Origin: Bacteroidota bacterium
GTDB lineage: Bacteria > Bacteroidota > Bacteroidia > Bacteroidales > GCA-2711565
Reading direction: 5' to 3'
Length of the DNA stretch: 64,000 bases
Assembly: GCA_018816945.1 (NCBI GenBank)
Contig: JAHIVC010000027.1
Coordinates: 62,001-126,000, forward strand
The position numbers and the translations under genes were made by a program. Every line of letters starts with the position of its first letter. Within the stretch, counting starts at the first letter, position 1. The notes under the pieces were generated by a model that saw nothing but the letters and a program-made list of their open reading frames with translations, did no database searches and had not been told where the DNA came from. Positions 902 to 57,643 of the stretch are shown here, piece after piece.

Positions 902-2074
902 TTATATACCTTCATATATAATCTTCAAAAACTGCCCCAATTTACTAGGTTCAAGCCAACGGGTCACAATTACAATATCGTTTTTCTCGTCAATAATAAT
1001 ATTATTTCCGCCAAAACCGGAGGCATAATAAATATTGGCCGGCACCCCTTCCATACTCCGTGGGCCCTGGTTTAACCACCACATGTAACCATAACTTCCA
1101 TAAGCTTTTGAAGGCTGCTGAACGGCTTTTACCCATGCTTTGGAAATGAGTTGTTTGCCCTGCCAATTGCCTTCCCTCAAAAAGAGTAAGCCAAATTTGG
1201 CATGATCGAGGGTATTGATAAAAAGTCCGCCGCCGGTATGGCCTCCCCCACTTACCGATTGCACCTTGATCCCATCCACGTTTACCCATGAAGTTTCGTA
1301 ACCGAACCATCGCCAGGTTGAGGAAGCACCTATCGGATCCATGATTCGCTCTTTTAATACTTGTGGTAAAGGTTTACGCCAAACTTGCAACAATGCATAA
1401 GCGGTTGCATTCACGCGGACATCGTTGTATTTATAAACCGTTCCGGGTTCGTTTAATTTTCTGTATCTCCAATCATCAATTCCTCCTTCACGTGGTGGGC
1501 GATCGGCCCAATCATGCTGGCCAAACAAAGTACCCGACCAATCGGAAGACTGTGTCAACAAATAATCCCAGGTGATCTTCGAGTTATGTTCACCCTGAAA
1601 AGTTTCATCCCATACATAATCAATCACTTTATCGTTTACATTTTGGATTAAACCATCGCCGATAGCCAAACCTGCAACGGTTGAAAGGTAGCTTTTGGTT
1701 ACACTAAAAGTCATGTCAACCCTATCCACATCGCCCCATTGAGCAATGATGTAGCCATTTTTTATGATAATTCCGGCAGGACCTCCTCGGTGTTTAGTTG
1801 GGCCAACGATGTTGATAAAAGGCTCGTTTTTAAATGATTCGTAAATGGCAATTCGCAAATCCACATTTCCGGAATATTCGTTGGCCTTAGCGAATGAAAC
1901 TGCCTCATCAAGTTTTGCAGGGTTGATTCCAACTTCCTTTGGGCTCTTGGTTTCCCAGGTTTTGTTCTTTTCAGGATAATAAAGTTTTTGTGCGTTGAGA
2001 GTTGAAAAGATGAATAAGAATACTCCTGTCAGGATGAAGGACTGGAACCTTAGTTTTTTGATTAACATTTGCAT
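902..2074 (-). CDS. Serine hydrolase, class C beta-lactamase/esterase family
   Basis: This 390-aa secreted protein has an N-terminal signal sequence (basic start, hydrophobic residues about 12-28, likely cut after LNA). The nucleophile motif is SVTK (Ser124-Lys127), followed by a helix LSTVAGLAIGDG. A second-site Tyr lies in YND near residue 216, and HTGGGL late in the protein corresponds to the KTG-like third motif. This is the penicillin-binding/beta-lactamase class C fold; related proteins are esterases, peptidases or amide hydrolases, and the substrate cannot be read from sequence. It stands alone on the minus strand. A second Met two codons in is an alternative start. Not evidence of antibiotic resistance by itself. 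Confidence 0.8.
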   Translation of the reverse strand: MQMLIKKLRFQSFILTGVFLFIFSTLNAQKLYYPEKNKTWETKSPKEVGINPAKLDEAVSFAKANEYSGNVDLRIAIYESFKNEPFINIVGPTKHRGGPAGIIIKNGYIIAQWGDVDRVDMTFSVTKSYLSTVAGLAIGDGLIQNVNDKVIDYVWDETFQGEHNSKITWDYLLTQSSDWSGTLFGQHDWADRPPREGGIDDWRYRKLNEPGTVYKYNDVRVNATAYALLQVWRKPLPQVLKERIMDPIGASSTWRWFGYETSWVNVDGIKVQSVSGGGHTGGGLFINTLDHAKFGLLFLREGNWQGKQLISKAWVKAVQQPSKAYGSYGYMWWLNQGPRSMEGVPANIYYASGFGGNNIIIDEKNDIVIVTRWLEPSKLGQFLKIIYEGI

Positions 2075-2275
2075 GATGAAGTTGAATTTGAGGTTTATGA
2101 ATAAGTAAGTAAATATAAATTGAATTCAACTAATAAAAAAGCAGATTGACGGGTTATCGACAAGGATCAAAATTAATCCCACCAATAATTTAACTTCCCG
2201 ATAAAGAGAAAAAATAATTGTTTTATTATTTATTAAATAATTGAAAAAAATATAATTTCGTAAAAAAAATACAAT

Positions 2276-2614
2276 ATGCCATTTATCAATTTCAACAATA
2301 TAAAAAGAGTTAAGGTATGGGACGGTATCACAGGAACTGTAGCTCATTCGGACTCAATGACCTTTGCCCGCTTAAGAATTAAAAAAGGGACCGTTTTGCA
2401 ACCCCATTCGCATCCGCATGAGCAATGGACCCATTTATTGGAAGGCAGATTGTCGTTCACAATTGGTGATGAAACTCAGATTTTGGAACATGGAATGGCT
2501 GCTCATATTCCTTCAAATGTTCCTCATAAAATTGAGGCACTGACCGAGTGTTTTGTCATTGATTGTTTTACACCGGTTCGGGAAGAGTTTAAAAAGTTGG
2601 AGGTGATAGGTTAA
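2276..2614 (+). CDS. Small cupin-domain protein
   Basis: A 112-aa single-domain cupin. The first cupin motif is visible as HSHPHEQ (His44, His46, His48, Glu49) and the second as PSNVPHK with His84, giving a usual metal-binding His set. Small stand-alone cupins of this type bind a divalent metal and act in sugar or small-molecule chemistry or as sensors; the substrate is unknown. The 3' end overlaps the dapB 3' end by four bases on the opposite strand, so the two genes converge. It is likely cytoplasmic, with no signal peptide. Confidence 0.75.
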   Translation: MPFINFNNIKRVKVWDGITGTVAHSDSMTFARLRIKKGTVLQPHSHPHEQWTHLLEGRLSFTIGDETQILEHGMAAHIPSNVPHKIEALTECFVIDCFTPVREEFKKLEVIG

Positions 2615-3336
2615 AATGATTTGAGGTGTAGAACGTCATTCATTTCAAAAAAACCTTTTTTGTTTTGCATAAATTCGGCTGCTAAAACGGCACCCAATAC
2701 AAATCCTTCCCTGCTTTTCGCCGAATGTGATAACTCTAGCGTGTCAAATGAAGATTCATATTTTATTTCATGAATTCCGGGGACTTCTCCCCTTCTGATT
2801 GCATTAATTCCAAGAATATCATTTGTAGAATGATCGGCGAGATTCCAACTATTCAAGCGATCGATATTATTGATAATGCCTTGTGCGAGCGTAATGGCTG
2901 TCCCACTGGGGCTGTCCAGTTTTTTGGTATGATGGATCTCCTCAATAGCAACACTGTAAGCCGGAAAAGTGTTCATGATTTTTGCCAACATTTTATTCAA
3001 AGCAAATAATACATTTACACCCACACTAAAATTAGATGCATACAAAAATCCCTTATTCTCACTGATACTGATTTGTTTCAGTTTAGCCAATTTATCGGTC
3101 CAGCCGGTTGTTCCGCTTATTACAGGAATATTTGCATTAAAACAATGCAGAATATTTGCGTATGCAGAAGTCGGATTCGTGAATTCAATGGCAACATCAA
3201 CCTGCTCAGTATTCAGGTCGTGAATTTCTTCAAAATTATCCTGATCGATGATAAATTTAATTTGATGCCCACGATCCACTAAAACCCGCTCAATTTCGTG
3301 ACCCATGCGGCCATATCCAATAATTGCAATATTCAT
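2611..3336 (-). CDS. dapB: 4-hydroxy-tetrahydrodipicolinate reductase
   Basis: This enzyme reduces 4-hydroxy-tetrahydrodipicolinate with NAD(P)H in the diaminopimelate/lysine pathway, feeding lysine and peptidoglycan synthesis. The 241-aa protein starts with the Rossmann motif GYGRMG (residues 7-12) and carries the family signature around residues 132-147, EEIHHTKKLDSPSGTA, with His135/His136, Lys139 and the substrate-binding SGTA. Length is slightly short but normal for Bacteroidota. It is the last gene of the dapA-lysC-lysA-dapB run, starting nine bases after the lysA stop, so it is probably co-transcribed and translationally coupled. Confidence 0.95.
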   Translation of the reverse strand: MNIAIIGYGRMGHEIERVLVDRGHQIKFIIDQDNFEEIHDLNTEQVDVAIEFTNPTSAYANILHCFNANIPVISGTTGWTDKLAKLKQISISENKGFLYASNFSVGVNVLFALNKMLAKIMNTFPAYSVAIEEIHHTKKLDSPSGTAITLAQGIINNIDRLNSWNLADHSTNDILGINAIRRGEVPGIHEIKYESSFDTLELSHSAKSREGFVLGAVLAAEFMQNKKGFFEMNDVLHLKSF

Positions 3337-3345
3337 TTCAAGTTT

Positions 3346-4572
3346 TTATGGGTGCATATTAATTTCCATGGGAACGTCTTCCAGGTGTGTACTGCAGTAG
3401 TCTGCAATTCCTTGTTCCGTGAGATCGGAAGAATAATAGGATTTTACCTTGTTTCGTAAATTATAGTATGACGTCATCACCTCACCATAAGCACCTGCCG
3501 ATCTCAAAACGATTAAATCGCCCCTTTTAGTTTCAGGCAAATCGATTCCGCTTCCAAAGCTATCTGTCGATTCGCAAAGCGGACCTACTATATCGTAGGT
3601 TGCAGGTTCCGAATTTGAAGAAATGTTTTGGATTTTGTGATAAGCCTGATACAATGCAGGACGAATAAGTTCAGTAAATCCGGCATCTACAACCGCAAAC
3701 TTTTTAGTGCCGCCATTTTTAACATACAATACTTTCGTAATTAAATTACCACATTGGCCAACGATTGATCTGCCCGGCTCCAAATGAACTTCCTGACCTG
3801 AACGCACTATCAAATTTTGTTCAATGGTTTGGATGAGTTTTTCAAAATCTGGGATGGGATTTTTATCAGGATTTTGATAATCAATACCTAAACCGCCCCC
3901 TAAATTGATGTGGTCAAAAATAAATCCTTTTGAATTAAACCAGTCCTGAATTTCATTTACCCTCAAACATAATTTTTTGAAAACATTTATATCCGTAATT
4001 TGAGAACCAATATGAAAGTGTAATCCGGTTATTTCAATTGCTTTAAAATCAAAAATAGAAGCTATTAATTCATCAAGCTCTTCCTGACTGAATCCAAATT
4101 TATTGGTTTGCATTCCGGTAGTGATGTAATGATGTGTTTTCGCTTCAACATTAGGATTGATGCGAATTGCAATATTAGCCACCTTATCCCGCTCTAGTGC
4201 AATTTCGTTGATTATTCTGACTTCCTGTAAGGATTCACAATTAAAAACTCCGATATTGTGATCCAGTGCCAAACAAATTTCCTCATCTGATTTTCCAACT
4301 CCTGCAAATACAATTTTTTGAGGATCAAAACCCAAGCGGATTGCTTGCAGTATCTCATTTCCGCTTACACAGTCGGCTCCAAAACCATGTTTCCTAATCA
4401 TTTGTAATATAGGCTCGTTTACATTTGCTTTTAAGGCGTAGTGTATTTGATAGTTATTATGAAAAACAAGGCTTTTTAAGCGTAAGATCGTTTGTTCCAA
4501 CTGATCTAAATCGTAAAAATAAAACGGTGTGGGTGTATCCTGAAATTTTTTGATTAATTCGTTGTTAAACAT
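3346..4572 (-). CDS. lysA: Diaminopimelate decarboxylase
   Basis: This PLP enzyme decarboxylates meso-diaminopimelate to lysine, the last step of the pathway. From the ATG at 4572 the protein is 408 aa. The PLP lysine is Lys48 in HYALKAN; HFHIGSQ, the glycine loop GGGLGIDY, EPGRSIVG and the dimer-contributed GPLCESTD are all present, as in fold-type III decarboxylases. A longer frame begins with GTG at 4599, but the ATG gives a conventional N-terminus (MFNNELIKKF). Its start overlaps the lysC stop by eight bases, which suggests translational coupling. Confidence 0.95.
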   Translation of the reverse strand: MFNNELIKKFQDTPTPFYFYDLDQLEQTILRLKSLVFHNNYQIHYALKANVNEPILQMIRKHGFGADCVSGNEILQAIRLGFDPQKIVFAGVGKSDEEICLALDHNIGVFNCESLQEVRIINEIALERDKVANIAIRINPNVEAKTHHYITTGMQTNKFGFSQEELDELIASIFDFKAIEITGLHFHIGSQITDINVFKKLCLRVNEIQDWFNSKGFIFDHINLGGGLGIDYQNPDKNPIPDFEKLIQTIEQNLIVRSGQEVHLEPGRSIVGQCGNLITKVLYVKNGGTKKFAVVDAGFTELIRPALYQAYHKIQNISSNSEPATYDIVGPLCESTDSFGSGIDLPETKRGDLIVLRSAGAYGEVMTSYYNLRNKVKSYYSSDLTEQGIADYCSTHLEDVPMEINMHP

Positions 4573-49960: not shown

Positions 49961-49995
49961 TGCTTGCAATTAAATTTGATACTATTAATAGCTAC

Positions 49996-50132
49996 TTGTC
50001 CAAGTTCATTGCCTAAAACACTACTAAAAACATTAGCATGGACAATATGACTAAGTCCTTGTCCAAGTTCATTAACTAATACACCACCAAAAGTATCTAC
50101 TTGGACATTATGTCCAAGTAGTTGTCCAAGTA
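49996..50132. repeat. 63-bp tandem repeat (2.2 copies) with a 25-bp palindrome
   Basis: ttgtccaag occurs at 49996, 50059 and 50122, exactly 63 bases apart, and the 63-base units are diverged copies. On the minus strand each unit reads as 21 codons starting with Leu-Gly-Gln, in the same frame as the upstream deaminase-ATPase gene. The second unit includes a perfect inverted repeat (50097-50121, 12+1+12) centred on an acat/atgt core. Confidence 0.7.
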
Positions 50133-50139
50133 CAATAGT

Positions 50140-51648
50140 TTATACAATAACATACTTATAATTAGGAGAATTAGTATCTGCACCATTATCACTTATAAGA
50201 CCAAGTTCTTTCATTTTTGCCAAATAACGTTGAGCGGTTTTATATCCAATATTAAAATGAGATGAAAATTCTCTCGTACTAACTTCCCCTGTAATTCTAA
50301 TGAATTCATAGCCTTTAAGTTCCTTGTCTGTTAGATTCTTTAACTTTTCATCCATACCCCTAGTTGTAGAAAGTGATCTAGGAAAAGTAACAATAAGATA
50401 TGGCTCTGTATAGGTGATGACAGGCAATGGAAGGTTATATTTTTCTCTCATAGTTCTATATGTATCCATTCCCACTCCTGTTTCCTCCATATACCTCATA
50501 ATATTAAAAATGTAAGCTAGTTCAGGGTTACGAGTTTGAGAAATAGCTGTGAAGTTTTGTAGATCTTTGAGAGTATTTGGTGAAATGGGTTTGCCTGGAC
50601 TTCTAACCTCAATTTTCTCAGGGGTTATATAAAGCTCAACTTTGGCGCTTCTAATTGAATAATCGCGATGAATTATTGCATTAATAATTACTTCACGAAT
50701 AACATCAGGAGGGAAATGTGATGCCTTTTCTCTTGTAAAGTCAGATCGATTAATGCTTTCAGGAATAACCTTCTTTGCCCATTCTTTTACTTTGTCAGGA
50801 ACAAGGATTAATGCATCATCGAAACTTACTGTATCTGGTTCCTCTCCTCCTCCGTAATCAACTTTGACCTTAACCGAAGCTTGTGGATATTTATCTCTCG
50901 GATTACTTCCAAATAACAATATGCAATCACCAGTTGGTATGATTTCATTAGTTTTTTCATCTACCACCAATAGATCTTTGCTAATTAAATCTTTCCTAAG
51001 ATCGTCTGAATTAAAACTATATTTCTTCTTTGTTTTGGATATGTATAATTCAAGTGCTTCTTGTGATAAAGATTCAATGTTGGCATTTTTCACTGGCTTT
51101 TGTAATGGCCCTGTTACAATTGCTTTTGCATTTTCTTCTTTCCAACTTTCTTGTTCAACCCAATCATTAAAATTTTTATTAAAATCAAGTATTTCTCGAT
51201 GAAGGTCCTTATCAAAAGGCAAAACTTTTGCTTTAAATTCAACCTCTAACAGTTTTTTACCACCTCTTGCTTTTGAATTCAATTCCTGAACACCATACCA
51301 CACTTTCTTTATACGGGCGTTACCAATTCTTTCAGCACAACAAAGTTTTGGAAATTTTCTTGCTTTGGGACCACAAGGTTCCAATGTGGCAAATAACCAA
51401 CAATCTGAAAGATCTTTTGCCCGAAATTTTTTATCTATTAGAGTATATTCTGCATGATCGCCTTCACGAAACTCACCTCTACAGGCTGTTTCATAAGTAC
51501 CATCAGGAAATACTAGTACAGCGCCTACTCTGGGACTTGGAGTGTCTTTGTTGATCTCGTCTTTTGAATCTTTCATCACTCTGATCGCTTCCTGCATATA
51601 AAAGCGAGGCTCTTTCCTTTTATCTTCTATGACTCTTTCTTTTGCCAT
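50140..51648 (-). CDS. Deaminase domain fused to a GHKL-type ATPase and winged helix
   Basis: A 502-aa fusion I do not know as a named family. Residues ~15-150: a zinc deaminase domain of the RibD/dCMP type, with His65-Ala-Glu67 and Cys92/Cys103 (TLEPCGPKARKFPKLCCAERI region). Residues ~195-425: the linker and GHKL fold seen in HATPase_c_4 (AlbA_2-associated) regulators, with N-box EVIINAIIHRDYS (Glu319, Asn323, Asp329) and G-box EETGVGMDTY. Residues ~430-502: a winged helix (STREFSSHFNIGYKTAQRYLAKMKELGLI). In usual members an AlbA_2 domain takes the deaminase's place. It starts 14 bases after res, so it is the fourth gene of the radC-mod-res unit. A role in nucleotide-based defence or its regulation is inference. 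Confidence 0.75.
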   Translation of the reverse strand: MAKERVIEDKRKEPRFYMQEAIRVMKDSKDEINKDTPSPRVGAVLVFPDGTYETACRGEFREGDHAEYTLIDKKFRAKDLSDCWLFATLEPCGPKARKFPKLCCAERIGNARIKKVWYGVQELNSKARGGKKLLEVEFKAKVLPFDKDLHREILDFNKNFNDWVEQESWKEENAKAIVTGPLQKPVKNANIESLSQEALELYISKTKKKYSFNSDDLRKDLISKDLLVVDEKTNEIIPTGDCILLFGSNPRDKYPQASVKVKVDYGGGEEPDTVSFDDALILVPDKVKEWAKKVIPESINRSDFTREKASHFPPDVIREVIINAIIHRDYSIRSAKVELYITPEKIEVRSPGKPISPNTLKDLQNFTAISQTRNPELAYIFNIMRYMEETGVGMDTYRTMREKYNLPLPVITYTEPYLIVTFPRSLSTTRGMDEKLKNLTDKELKGYEFIRITGEVSTREFSSHFNIGYKTAQRYLAKMKELGLISDNGADTNSPNYKYVIV

Positions 51649-51662
51649 AATTTGGTTTGTAA

Positions 51663-54248
51663 TTATTCATCTTCCGCTAAAAGCATCAATTCTAATTCAC
51701 TCGTGAACTTATCCTCCAAGAGTTTCCCATTTCGTAAATGATCAAAAAATACAACATACGAACTTGGACTTAGAAAATGATAATGATATGACTCTTTAAT
51801 TTTCTTGGCTTTTATTTCTTTATTCAAATTTTCAAAATGAAGTTTGGCGTATTTATTCTTGGCTTTATTTTCATCACTTGCATCATTGTCAGCTTTTATT
51901 TCAACAACAATAAAATGAGACTGATTTTTGTGTTTTAATTTTATAAAAAAATCGGGGTTAAAGCTTTGTATTTTCGAATGTTTGCCACCAACGCTGGTTA
52001 TTGAATACTCTATTGAATAAAATGCCATATCACGAGATTTAATCCATGAATCGATAATTTGAGCATTTTCATTTTTGCATAAATGTTCAATGAACTTTCT
52101 TTCGGGTTCTCCTTTTGTAAAAACTATATCTAAAGGGGTTTTAATAATGAATGAGTTAATTTCTTTTGATGAACTTTTCGGGAAACTTTCATCTTCAATT
52201 ACAGCGTTTAAAATTTCTCTGTTTTCAACTTCAAGCTCTGTTGAGTAATTGGAAGAATAAAATACAGTAGAATTGTGCCTTAAATTGCCAACTGCAATAC
52301 TTTCTTTCTCAATGGTTTTAGTTGATATAATAAATGGCTCCTTAGCCTTCCTTTCATACACCGTTGTTTTGCCTGACTTACGGAGCAGAGTATTAAAACT
52401 GCTCAGAATTTTCTGCATATTTTTTTCAATAAGGCGATCTCCTTTGATACCTACCCTATCCGTTGAATTTCGAATGATATGTCGTATTTCATCTTTAGGT
52501 GGAAGTTTTTCTTTTGAATAATTACCCGTAGGCAATTTTAAGATTTTCCCTTCCCATTCTCTTAATTTCAATTCATCATGAATTTTGTTTACAATCCACT
52601 CAATCGTATATGTATTGTAAAGAATTAGAGTGTTCTTTGAACTAATACCACCAGACAAATCAGTATATTCGGTATCTTTTTCTGTTTCTTCAACTTGTGA
52701 TTGTAATTCAATAAAACCTTTTGTGTAATCAAATTCTTTATGTTCTTTGTTTGATTCTTTTTCGATTGCCTCTTTTTCGTAATTTATTTGATGCATATCA
52801 AAATGGAATTTAGCTCTATCTCCTTCTTTTATCGAAGAAGATATAAGTTTCATCTCAATTTCTAGTATTTCATCAACTAAACCCTTAATGCTTCTGGACC
52901 ATGCATCGTGATTAAATACCCTAACTTTAGGTTGTGGAGTTTGATATTCGGCTGGTATTCTTAATCCTCTTCCTAAGACCTGTGCTATCAGCAACTTTGA
53001 ATTAAAAGCACGGTCTTCCATCGGAACAATCTGAAAAACATTTTTAACATCCCAACCTTCTGTAAGCATTGAGACAGAAACAATCCACTCAACTTCATTT
53101 TCTTTATTGTCTACCTCTTTTAGTTTTCTGGCATTTGCTTTATGCTCATTTGCAGAAGTAACAATTAGAACTTTGTCTTCGCAAGTCTCGACAGGTATAG
53201 ATTCTTTTTCACAGAGTTTTTCAATTAACCAAGAACGCAATTGTTTTGCCTTTAATATGTCTTTTGTAACCAGAATCGTTAATGGTTTAACTTTTCTATA
53301 TGTATTTTTATTTTGTTGATGGTTATCGTATATTTCCTGAAATTTAATATCATCGTCTGCCTCCTCATTTTTGCTTACATAGTCAACCATTTTTATCATT
53401 TTATCATCAACGGCTTGTCGTAAAGAATACCGATAGATAACATCATTAAAATACTCATCCTGGATATAGGTTGTACCAGAAAATCCAATTGAATATTTAA
53501 AATTGTATTCATCACTAAGTAAAAATTCTTTCCATTTTTTTATACTCTTGCTTTCATTATCACGACCATCAACAGGATTAAAAATATGATGTGCTTCATC
53601 GTTTAAAACTAATGTGCGTGCGCCATTCCCTATAAAACTATCTTTAATAGAAGAACCTGTTCTTTCATACACTGCATGAATGTTTTCAATGCAAATATCA
53701 CCTTCCTTGATTGTGATATCGGCTGTTTTAATTGATGGATTTTTGATTTTACTGTTTTCAGGAATTGATTTTAGTAAGGCAGAGTCTTCGGAAAGTTTTC
53801 GGAATTTTTCCATCAAGCCATCTTCGATAGTAAGGGATGGACAAAGAACAAGAACTCTGTCAACAATGCCTAATCCAAGCATTATTTGAGCAATACCATA
53901 AATCACGTAGCTTTTACCTGTGCCAGTTGCCAAATCAATAGTTGCAGACATTTTTCGATTCATTTGCAACTTACTTTCATATTCATCAATGCTATTGTAG
54001 CGTGTTTTGAGTTCAACCATTTTAGGGTTTAACCAATTCTCACGTATTAAATCATTAATTGAATTGTATAACCCCGAAGCCATAAAAATTATTGATTTAA
54101 TAATTGCTTCTTTCTGATATTGACGATTGCTGCATAAAATGTCCAAAAATCTGTCCCATTCTGCAATATTGAGTGCTGCAGGATTGAAGTTATTCGAAAC
54201 TTGTAAAACAAGATCGGCAGTCTTGTATGTTTTTATTTCTTGTACCAT
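51663..54248 (-). CDS. Type III restriction enzyme, Res subunit
   Basis: The helicase/nuclease subunit of a type III restriction-modification system. The 861-aa protein has the Walker A loop DLATGTGKS (~107-113), the DEAH box LNDEAHHIF (217-220), helicase motif VI AQVLGRGLRIP, and a C-terminal PD-(D/E)XK nuclease with Asp766 and Glu783/Lys785 (FNPDFFIKL, VVEIKAD). It needs the Mod subunit to recognise DNA and translocates with ATP before cutting. Its ATG shares one base with the mod stop (TAATG), so translation is coupled. All catalytic motifs look intact. Confidence 0.92.
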   Translation of the reverse strand: MVQEIKTYKTADLVLQVSNNFNPAALNIAEWDRFLDILCSNRQYQKEAIIKSIIFMASGLYNSINDLIRENWLNPKMVELKTRYNSIDEYESKLQMNRKMSATIDLATGTGKSYVIYGIAQIMLGLGIVDRVLVLCPSLTIEDGLMEKFRKLSEDSALLKSIPENSKIKNPSIKTADITIKEGDICIENIHAVYERTGSSIKDSFIGNGARTLVLNDEAHHIFNPVDGRDNESKSIKKWKEFLLSDEYNFKYSIGFSGTTYIQDEYFNDVIYRYSLRQAVDDKMIKMVDYVSKNEEADDDIKFQEIYDNHQQNKNTYRKVKPLTILVTKDILKAKQLRSWLIEKLCEKESIPVETCEDKVLIVTSANEHKANARKLKEVDNKENEVEWIVSVSMLTEGWDVKNVFQIVPMEDRAFNSKLLIAQVLGRGLRIPAEYQTPQPKVRVFNHDAWSRSIKGLVDEILEIEMKLISSSIKEGDRAKFHFDMHQINYEKEAIEKESNKEHKEFDYTKGFIELQSQVEETEKDTEYTDLSGGISSKNTLILYNTYTIEWIVNKIHDELKLREWEGKILKLPTGNYSKEKLPPKDEIRHIIRNSTDRVGIKGDRLIEKNMQKILSSFNTLLRKSGKTTVYERKAKEPFIISTKTIEKESIAVGNLRHNSTVFYSSNYSTELEVENREILNAVIEDESFPKSSSKEINSFIIKTPLDIVFTKGEPERKFIEHLCKNENAQIIDSWIKSRDMAFYSIEYSITSVGGKHSKIQSFNPDFFIKLKHKNQSHFIVVEIKADNDASDENKAKNKYAKLHFENLNKEIKAKKIKESYHYHFLSPSSYVVFFDHLRNGKLLEDKFTSELELMLLAEDE

Positions 54249-56290
54249 TATTCCAACTTAAATTCTTCTTTAAATTCATTTCCGTAAATGTCAACATAAA
54301 TAAGCATCAACCTTTTCCCACACTCTTTTTTGGGAATTGCGGGTAATTGTATCTGACTCATGTGCTTTAAACCTTCTTTAATATTTTCAACAGATTCTTC
54401 TTCGGCTGTCTTTTTTTTCTTTTTAGGCAATAGATCTTGAGCAAAATAGTACGTATCCATATCAAAGGTTTCTCCATCAAAATCATTGTCTATCAAAATC
54501 ATTGCTAAGCTTTCAAAATTTGCCATATCTCTGTTGGTTTCTTCTTCGCTGAAATCAGAAAGAAACTTGCTTATAGTTATTTGGTACTCGCCAGATTTTT
54601 CTCTTAGTTCGCTTTTCACTTCAGGTTGCCTGATGAAATGGAAGCCAATAGCATCTTCTAAGTCGTTCACATTGCTTTTACTTTGTGGTTGCCTGAATTT
54701 TTTGAACTGAACCTTGTGTAATTCGCGAATTATGTGGTAAGGTACTTTCAGAAAATAGTAACGTACTTTATCTATTTCATAATAATCGCTTATAAAATCT
54801 ACATAACTGGCAGGAGCAATGATATAAACTCTCTTCCCTGCTTTATTTCCTAAATGACTGTGCAGATTATGCAAAAATTCTTCATCTACAGAACTGTCCT
54901 TAAATTTCCAGTATTGCCAAACGATAACATTGTAACCGTCTTTTTTCTCACCATCAATTTGAATTCCACTAATTGTTTTTTTCTTTGGTTCTACTTCAAA
55001 AAGATTCATTACGAAATCAGAATATTCCTTTTGTTTTAAATCGAATATTTTTGCAAGGTCATAATGACCAGTATTTACAGTAATAAAGCTTTTTGCATCT
55101 TTTCCATACTCCTTTTTAAGGTCTAAAGCTTTATTTTGTTTTATATTTAATAGTCGTTTTTGAATTGTGTAAAAAGACAGCTTTCCAATGTCACATACAA
55201 TCCATTTACGATTTGTTTTTTCAGCAACAGCGGCAGTTGTTCCGGAACCCCCAAAAAAATCAAGAATGATATCTCCTTCTTTAGTTGAGGCTTCAATTAT
55301 TCTTTTAAGTAATTTTTCCGGTTTTTGTGTTGGATAACCAGTTCCTTCAACAGATGTGAAGGAATAAGTTCCAACGCCATAATCGTTGAAAGCTTTAGCT
55401 ATTTCATCTTTTCCAATCCAAGTACTCCATGCAGGTTGCGGCCTGTTTTCTTTAGCATTTTCTAATGCCTCCTCCTTAGTCAAATTTGGATTATTGCATA
55501 TGTATGTTTTGAGAAATCCTTTACCACCACTACTTTCTTGCCTACGAGTATAATACCAACCATCTTTATCTTTTGCTAAACTTTTTTTTATGTAATCAGA
55601 ATACCCAAGGCGTGAAGGTGGTTTAAAATAAGCTTCAGGTGATTTATAACAAAAAATCGTTTCATGTGCCTTGGGATAAAATTTGCCAGCACCCATAAGA
55701 CCACATACCCAAATAATTTCACTGAATAAATACTCAGGAAATATTTCATCCAAAATAGTCTTAACGTAATGACCTTTTTTTGCATCTAAATGAACATAAA
55801 TCGTAGCATCCAATGACAATATTGATTTCGCAACAATCAATCTTCGTCTTAGAAACTCAATGAAATCAGCACCTTTTGATTTATCTGTATAAACAATTTG
55901 TTTATTTTTTGAAAAATCACTATCAGTCCCAAATGGAGGGTCAATATAAATTAGTTTAACCTTGCCTTTAACTTTATCTTTAATTAAAGGGTCTTTATTT
56001 TCATAAATCGTTTTAAGAAATTGTAAGTTATCTCCAAAAGCAATAATATTTCTCCAACCATCTTTCCATCGCTCTCTTTTACCGTTGTATATTTTTTCAA
56101 TTTGTAATGGTACAGGAAACACACCATCCTCATTGGCAAGAATATCTTCTCTACGCATTTTACCGCCATAAACTAATTCATATTCCTTTTGCTTAACAGG
56201 GAAAAGCTTGTATTTATAATCCTCCGGAATGGTTTCACCCTTTTGCAATCTTTCAATTAAATCGCTTATATCTTGCTGTGATAATTTCAT
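54248..56290 (-). CDS. Type III DNA methyltransferase, Mod subunit
   Basis: The adenine methyltransferase and sequence-recognition subunit of the type III system. The 680-aa protein has the amino-methyltransferase motif DPPFGTDSD (117-125, in the DPPY class) preceding the SAM-binding motif [11 protein letters not shown] (345-355), i.e. the beta arrangement of type III Mods. The middle part between them is the target-recognition region. It starts two bases after the radC stop. No simple-sequence repeat that could phase-vary it was noticed in the gene. Confidence 0.93.
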
Positions 56291-56292
56291 AT

Positions 56293-56961
56293 TTATTTTT
56301 TATATAAAAGTCCTTCTGTCTGAAAACTAAAATGGTGATTTCTGGTCACTATAATATGGTCAATAACTTGTATGCCAAGAATTCTTGCTGCTTCACAAAG
56401 TTGATTCGTCAATTTAATATCTTCAACCGATGGCTTTGCATCGTCTGCAGGGTGATTGTGAATAAAAATAATCCCGGCTGCTCTGTCAGAAATTGCATCT
56501 ACAAATATTTCTCGTGGGTGTACAATACTAAAATTTACAGTGCCTTTGAAAACCTCGCGTTTTTCAATTAAAGCCGAAGCTCCGGTTAGTGTAATTGTTA
56601 GAAAATATTCTTGTTTTTTATCCCTAATATCTTTTACCAACGCTAGAACATCATCAGTATTTTGAATTTTCTTTTCCTCCTTTATTAAATAGCGTTTCGC
56701 CAATTCAAATGCAGAAAGTATCTGCCCTGCCTTTGCTTTGCCAATACCTTGAATTTTAGTTAGTTTTTCTAAGGTAATATTTTCCTTTTCGGTTTCAATT
56801 ACTTTCAAGATGTCTTTTGCAAGCGTTGAAACATCTCTGCCAATAGTTCCGCTACCGAGTAATACCATTAACAATTCATGGCTTGTCAATGCTTGAATAC
56901 CTCGTGCAGCAATTTTTTCACGGGGTTTGTCAATATTTGGTATGTCGGAAAGTTTTTTCAC
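56293..56961 (-). CDS. radC: RadC-family JAB1/MPN-domain protein
   Basis: A 222-aa RadC protein: N-terminal helix-hairpin-helix part ([31 protein letters not shown]) and the C-terminal JAB/MPN metalloprotease-like domain with [18 protein letters not shown] (His, His, Ser, Asp). It starts with GTG at 56961. The DNA-repair label is historical; RadC-like proteins are frequent near mobile and defence genes and their biochemical role is not settled. Here it is the first gene of the minus-strand run radC-mod-res-deaminase, with a two-base gap to mod. Confidence 0.9.
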
Positions 56962-57414
56962 TCTAAAATTTAGAATTTAAAATACGAATATAGATATTGT
57001 TCTCCATTTGTGTGTAATGAAATTGCACTCATTGAGAAAGCTTTGGTTTGTGTGTCGGCTTTTCTGAAGAATAGAATATTTACTTTAAACGCTACCCTCT
57101 CACCTTCTCAGAGCGTATTAAAAGGTAAATATCGGAAATAATAGTCAAACAAAAAATCTAAAAATCAGGGGCCGCATTCATTTTTTTTTAGGGTAAGGTG
57201 CGACAAATTTAATTTTTGGGTATCAATGAACAATACAGGCCATTAACTCAGCCTTACTGCATGTCAACGCAATAAACTGCTGTTTGGCCTAAGTTTTAAA
57301 CTTAAAAATAATGACTTATGCGCATCAAGCAACAAGCACCATTTAAAAAATATGATCGCATTATAAGCCCAAACGGTTCGCGCTTACCCAAAAACAATTC
57401 GCCCCCACAAAAAA
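56962..57414. other. Spacer before the radC cluster and 21-bp repeats
   Basis: No solid gene. A 37-codon frame from ATG 57318 runs into the first 21-bp repeat unit and stops there. The radC promoter is presumably at the left end (TATATTCG resembles a -7 box) but is weak. Base composition becomes less AT-rich near 57360-57410. Confidence 0.4.
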
Positions 57415-57549
57415 ATGATGCACCACCATGAGAAAATGATGCACCACCATGAAAAAATCATGCACCACCATGAGAAAATCATTCACCACCGTGAAAAAAT
57501 GATGCACCACCATGAGAAAATCATTCACCACCATGAAAAAGTCATTCAC
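57415..57549. repeat. 21-bp tandem repeat (6.4 copies)
   Basis: Units of 21 bases follow each other without spacers (atgatgcaccaccatgagaa type). Read on the plus strand they encode the heptad MMHHHEK/IIHHHEK six times from ATG 57415; in another frame every unit ends with a stop. Differences among units are few (atg/atc, gag/gaa, one cgt). It may be a variable-number repeat, a His-rich peptide or both. It lies 95 bases upstream of the 57644 gene. Confidence 0.7.
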
Positions 57550-57643
57550 CCTTGCAGGTTTATCATTTTATTTAGCGCGGCGGTTAAAAAAATCACTTAC
57601 TAATTAAAAAAATCAATTATTTATTCATTAAAACCATTTTATT

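Follow-up and report, generated by a model that had tools for sequence, protein, structure and literature searches.

A RibD-like deaminase fused to a GHKL–winged-helix chassis, apparently an anti-virus protein of a new type

Introduction

Proteins that combine a Schlafen RNase with a minimal histidine kinase and a winged helix-turn-helix (wHTH) have been described as widespread backup effectors in BREX loci (PMC12839542). With these Schlafen AlbA_2–GHKL–winged-helix proteins (COG2865; 3lmm, DIP2311; Pfam SLFN_AlbA_2 plus HATPase_c_4) the protein analysed here shares a homologous middle domain, the GHKL ATPase and the winged helix, together referred to as the chassis. Nucleotide deamination serves as an antiviral effector, alongside an ATPase or switch partner, in the AvcD/DCD dCTP deaminases, RADAR RdrB and Cad1, which is the same idea as the role we propose below. 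PMC10511110 describes AvcD as a deaminase restrained by an RNA.

We analysed a 64-kb stretch of DNA from a Bacteroidota genome (the window), in which one gene encodes a RibD-like zinc deaminase, a GHKL ATPase and a winged helix in a single chain. The fusion looks like an anti-virus protein of a type not described before, and a deaminase combined with a GHKL–winged-helix chassis was not found in the open-access papers searched.

Results

The fusion gene ends an operon of the order RadC–Mod–Res, and its position as the last gene of a restriction cluster, proposed in a preliminary description of the locus, was borne out: it starts 14 bp past Res on the same strand. Mod and Res have one base in common, the gap between RadC and Mod is 2 bp, and Res and Mod both match type III families. 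The features of the locus, in the direction of the operon, are as follows.

56293–56961, minus strand: JAB protein of the RadC family, which opens the operon (RadC 8.5e-38; NCBIfam PRK00024.1, over cut-off)
54248–56290, minus strand: Mod-like N6/N4 DNA methyltransferase (N6_N4_Mtase 2.8e-39; PADLOC MTase_III 1.2e-41)
51663–54248, minus strand: Res-like helicase/endonuclease (ResIII 8.2e-17)
50140–51648, minus strand: deaminase–GHKL–winged-helix fusion gene (ORF, Pfam, 22-member alignment, AlphaFold2 model)
51154–51648, minus strand: RibD-like zinc deaminase head, residues 1–165, with H65/E67/C92/C104 (Pfam, RibD profile alignment, Foldseek match to RibD, invariant ligands)
50749–51111, minus strand: middle domain, residues about 180–300, common to AlbA_2- and DUF4062-headed relatives (profile matches)
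50374–50748, minus strand: GHKL ATPase, residues 301–425, with N-box E319/N323/HRDY, SPG and E388-x-x-G391-x-G393 (HATPase_c_4, invariant residues, match to 3lmm)
50143–50340, minus strand: winged helix, residues 437–502, a mosaic (weak Pfam wHTH matches, AlphaFold2 model, identity comparison)
49993–50139, minus strand: 3' array of 63-bp units with the half-site ACTTGGACAA (repeat and triple-site scans)

Upstream of the operon, at 57370–57571, the window also holds a minisatellite of 21-bp units, about AAAATGATGCACCACCATGAG.

The open reading frame, with an ATG start, encodes 502 amino acids. Pfam placed dCMP_cyt_deam_1 at residues 16–119 (1.4e-11) and HATPase_c_4 at residues 335–422 (4.6e-14), both above the curated cut-offs; wHTH matches at residues 438–491 were weak. 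Two AlphaFold2 models of the protein had mean pLDDT values of 79.8 and 84.9, with a pTM of just 0.58 for the latter. Both models resemble RibD structures at the N-terminus and 3lmm in the remainder; in the better one, the N-terminal ~155 residues match the RibD structures 2hxv and 4g3m (Foldseek), and the GHKL–winged-helix part matches 3lmm/DIP2311 (E 2.4e-13). The domain order read earlier from the sequence is thus upheld by Pfam, by the model and by 22 homologues.

In a profile alignment, H65/E67 and C92/C104 align with the zinc and catalytic residues of RibD, and the head unites the H-x-E motif and two cysteines with a deaminase fold, as proteins of the cytidine-deaminase-like zinc superfamily do. 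Indeed, the complete HAE and Cys-Cys ligand set that had been claimed proved invariant in the 22 homologues, as did Glu67 and Asn323, which had been singled out as key residues. The invariant GHKL residues are E319, N323, HRDY, SPG, E388 and G393, to which G391 adds in at least 90% of members, so that the N-box Glu and Asn and the glycine-rich boxes of GHKL ATPases are in place. As in COG2865-type proteins, the HATPase_c_4 GHKL domain is followed by a winged helix. R97 and K101, close to the second cysteine, are invariant as well, which in sequence terms suggests phosphate binding. Because the deaminase and GHKL residues are invariant across 22 homologues, the fusion is neither a chance product nor a chimeric assembly.

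Pfam found no AlbA_2 domain in the fusion protein, and the deaminase holds the N-terminus in 22 of 22 members. In related genomes the same chassis is headed by AlbA_2 (L029, L031) or by DUF4062 (L032, L050); we delimited the middle domain from these proteins, which match the profile from about residue 177–185 onward. The replacement of AlbA_2 by a deaminase was therefore correctly seen in the preliminary description, but AlbA_2 is not the sole usual head, as DUF4062 also occurs. Among PADLOC models, SIR2-PNTD matches residues 145–394 of the fusion protein and none of the catalogued defence deaminases matches it.

A sister deaminase with a different C-terminal tail is encoded on two viral contigs (L107:7968-8885 and L108:8007-8900). 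Similar tails follow a DUF4062-like head (a match below the cut-off; tail identity 44%) and a PIN head (32%) on alphaproteobacterial plasmids. Given this exchange with nuclease heads, both on the chassis and on the second tail, the deaminase looks like a swapped-in effector. A further viral contig has a sister deaminase with another partner region (L019:4282-5316). Other viral deaminase matches (L112–L126) were rejected as relatives, being ordinary RibD, TadA or dCMP deaminases.

Full-length members number 22. All come from Bacteroidota as GTDB defines the phylum, which was searched widely, with a shallow search of other phyla. They occur in 12 of 395 Bacteroidia genomes, in 5/98 and 1/196 genomes of two other classes, in 2/197 of a fourth, and in two public contigs with 75% identity. 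Neither Pfam, NCBIfam, PADLOC nor the literature we searched contains the architecture, earlier called apparently new; the Bacteroidia count shows, however, that the window's genome is not alone in having it. Profile scores were 727–872 bits for full-length members and at most 134 bits for the next proteins, which match in the chassis alone; this gap marks the fusion as a discrete clade. The head tree and the chassis tree each place the fusion members in a single clade (support 100/99), indicating a single fusion event that has been kept intact. In plasmids and phages we found no full-length relatives, just matches to the chassis or to ordinary RibD/TadA. One member (L081:9017-10909, 630 aa) has about 120 extra residues inside the middle domain.

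The best NCBIfam match of the fusion protein was RibD, at 35.2 bits against an equivalog cut-off of 156. Neither RibD_C nor RibH was found in the genome of the window (99.5% complete), which excludes riboflavin housekeeping here; the catalogued housekeeping role that the preliminary description had named as the finding that would overturn its reading is, for riboflavin, ruled out on the same ground. From its gene content this genome is probably that of a riboflavin auxotroph. A separate complete ribD, over the cut-off, was present in all six other fusion-bearing genomes tested.

In 11 of 20 genome loci an N6-methylase (PF02384) is encoded no more than 10 kb away, where 0.67 such loci would be expected (P 9e-13); the window's own Mod (PF01555) is left out of this count. 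With four loci that we read as Chlorobium-like collapsed, the figure is 8 of 17 (P 8e-10). By type (genes in the relatives' loci being simple ORF calls), the window is a type III locus, L012–L016, L078 and L082 are type I, and L011, L075, L077 and L081 are Eco57I-like; L072 is mixed, and L017, L071, L074 and L079 lie away from restriction genes. In otherwise similar type I loci, the slot beside the fusion gene is taken by AAA_13, SIR2_2 or Cap4-nuclease genes. The suggested role in defence gains support from genomic association: the fusion genes are enriched next to restriction–modification systems of several kinds. In L072 a TIR–dynamin-like fusion (1334-4006) adjoins the Eco57I-type methylase and the deaminase gene.

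Directly past the stop codon of the fusion gene, the window carries copies of ACTTGGACAA at 50122–50131, 50059–50068 and 49996–50005, together with a perfect 12-nt palindrome at 50097–50121; units two and three have degenerate inner sites. A tandem array behind the fusion genes is a new observation, absent from the preliminary description. The array unit is 60–63 bp long and holds three half-sites (→ → ←) one helical turn apart. In 39 measured units, H1–H2 was 11–12 bp, H2–H3 10–12 bp and the period 60–63 bp, so that the spacings are close to one and six helical turns. The half-sites differ by lineage (CTTGGACA, TCGCGACA, TCTCGCCA, TCCCGCAA and others).

Within 150 nt downstream, a repeat of lag 59–64 scoring at least 20/30 was found behind 21 of 22 members and, among 214 control ORFs of these loci, behind two (maximum 20). 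In contrast, none of 19 AlbA_2- or DUF4062-headed relatives reached 20 (maximum 18), and the triple-half-site array of the fusion genes was not seen behind them. An independent scan for → → ← triples found them at the 3' ends of 21 of 22 members; outside these ends, two triples scored at least 22 in 404 kb. The window has a single copy of the full palindromic site, inside the fusion gene's own array, and in 20 loci the 400 bp upstream of the fusion gene are free of half-site copies. Past the stop codons of the AlbA_2- and DUF4062-headed genes L029 and L032 there are direct repeats of about 11 bp (TTGGCGATTT; GTCCGATAATC), which may be a less elaborate version of the array.

Several other explanations of the array were rejected. 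A coding 21-aa repeat peptide does not account for the 63-bp period, as other members have periods of 60–62 bp and there are in-frame stops. An intrinsic terminator lacks its T-run after the palindrome in the window; an operator of the restriction-operon promoter lacks the full site there; and an attC-like site does not suit tandem copies with no GTTRRRY core.

Separately, in several phage lineages the same type of GGACA → → ← triple, e.g. ACTTGGACACTTACTTGGACATTGTGTCCAAGT, lies 17–67 bp behind a gene for a single-strand DNA-binding protein of phages, phrog_224 (for example upstream of 1551 in L138 and of 11182 in L164; other viral contigs, L131–L164). The triple with a further GGACA was seen in 34 viral contigs.

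The similarity of the half-sites, which were read by eye, correlated with wHTH identity after the other regions were removed (partial r 0.46, p 0.0005), and did not correlate with the deaminase (0.01). The array adjoins the wHTH codons, so the correlation could partly reflect linkage. The winged helix itself appears to have been exchanged between members: that of the window is 67% identical to those of L011 and L072, against 27–52% for the rest of the protein; L009 and L072 are 91% identical in the wHTH and 36–46% elsewhere; and L011 and L073, 75–86% identical over the rest, are 42% identical in the wHTH and have different half-sites. Judged from these sequences, the winged helix quite probably binds the array. 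The wHTH had earlier been assigned to DNA binding, and the cognate-looking sites behind the gene lend that assignment independent support.

In four loci the fusion gene and array are followed by a short DprA-like (SLOG-type) gene (L009:9649-10116, L010:2030-2500, L011:11604-12089, L072:9068-9580). These four members share one wHTH type, and the window has no DprA-like gene; wHTH, array and DprA-like gene look in these sequences like one exchanged block. A second half-site type is present in the arrays of L010 (+159 to +260), L073 (+126) and L082 (+152), as if remnants of an earlier wHTH exchange had been left there.

Discussion

We propose that the fusion protein would be a defence effector in which a RibD-like deaminase takes the place that a Schlafen AlbA_2 head has elsewhere on the same GHKL–winged-helix chassis. 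Through its winged helix the protein would sit, as a phased oligomer, on the half-site array behind its gene, and the ATP-bound GHKL domain would be the clamp or switch that holds the deaminase inactive. This state would be disturbed by infection, or if the neighbouring restriction system failed; the freed deaminase may then attack a free nucleotide resembling the phosphorylated pyrimidine substrate of RibD, and depletion or poisoning of the nucleotide pool would stop phage growth. We infer the array binding, the ATP gating, the deamination of free nucleotides and the abortive outcome; for the mechanism as a whole, in which an array-anchored deaminase gated by ATP acts on nucleotides in abortive defence, we see the chances as evenly balanced. 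Against it speak the members that lie away from restriction genes (L017, L071, L074, L079), the possible share of linkage in the wHTH–half-site correlation, the confinement of full-length members to Bacteroidota in a search that was shallow for other phyla, and the position of the array, as the space behind a gene would be an odd place for a transcriptional operator.

The gene with its array would be the minimal unit: this pair turns up beside restriction systems of type I, of type III and of the Eco57I-like kind, and also on its own. A bolder version, which we regard as rather doubtful, is that a gene with its own helically phased 3' array forms a defence unit of a new kind. A specificity module (winged helix, sometimes with a DprA-like gene), passed on jointly with the array, would keep the protein inactive on its private array, whose occupancy would gate the nucleotide deaminase. 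If so, phages with look-alike triple elements could interfere.

A transcription regulator, whose deaminase-fold head senses a nucleotide or works as a slow enzyme and so cues the wHTH, with no toxic activity, would account for the wHTH and its likely sites being the clearest DNA element, and 3lmm is annotated as of the transcriptional-regulator type (Pfam DIP2311-like_C). It is nonetheless unlikely, as the invariance of the zinc ligands and catalytic Glu goes beyond a sensor's needs, the single full palindromic site does not lie upstream of the restriction operon, and half-sites are missing from the 400 bp upstream of the gene in 20 loci.

Would the deaminase instead act on RNA, as an RNA or tRNA editing toxin with TadA-like chemistry? 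TadA structures also match the profile, and the heads on related chassis include AlbA_2 (Schlafen, an RNase in PMC12839542) and PIN domains. We consider this distinctly improbable, however, as the best structural and profile matches are to RibD, whose substrate is nucleotide-sized, and R97/K101 by their position suggest phosphate binding.

The array might also be a structured RNA that restrains the deaminase in the manner of type III toxin–antitoxin systems such as AvcID, with the gene order reversed; the restraint of AvcD by an RNA, cited above, is a precedent. Folds of three of five members' arrays were better than all shuffles (z −4.3 to −4.9), the window's was better than all but 2 of 200, and H1 and H3 change together in L012. 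Yet one of the five folds weakly (z −1.6), and the outer-arm mismatches (9 A·C, 8 G·U) are not enriched in G·U and give no hint of RNA pairing, which favours a DNA site over an RNA hairpin. In addition, the half-sites track the wHTH and not the deaminase, the spacings fit DNA, and Rfam gave no match for the array. We give this reading little credence. Tandem repeats, which in type III toxin–antitoxin systems give an inhibitory RNA, are present here, but they lie behind the gene and show no sign of RNA covariation.

That the protein is a housekeeping enzyme, of riboflavin synthesis or nucleotide salvage, that became trapped in a fusion is scarcely credible: RibD is the closest named family, but far below its cut-off, the window's genome lacks RibD_C and RibH, the six other genomes have their own ribD, and the distribution of the fusion is sparse and mobile.

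If the proposed defence mechanism is right, a RibD-like deaminase would join the bacterial anti-phage effectors, and the widespread but poorly understood GHKL–winged-helix chassis would be a platform of general use, with Schlafen, DUF4062 and deaminase as exchangeable heads. The array provides a concrete candidate target for the winged helix of such proteins, and 22 natural wHTH–site pairs would make their holding and release directly testable.

Compared with known systems, the operon ended by the fusion gene has the Mod and Res homologues of type III restriction–modification; the deaminase gene is an extra, and its relatives adjoin type I or Eco57I-like systems or stand alone. With the deaminase domain of RibD/RibG the fusion head has in common the fold, the HAE and two-Cys zinc site and, in most members, the D-P-x-P-x-V-x-G loop. 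In contrast to RibD/RibG, it has no reductase domain, has a longer Cys–Cys loop, forms a separate clade (100/99) and occurs in a genome without riboflavin synthesis genes. AvcD/DCD, RdrB and Cad1 differ from the fusion, a putative deaminase, in deaminase family, regulatory domains and partner genes. Schlafen–GHKL–winged-helix proteins are, like the fusion, also found in defence loci (PMC12839542), but where they carry an AlbA_2 head the fusion carries a RibD-like deaminase.
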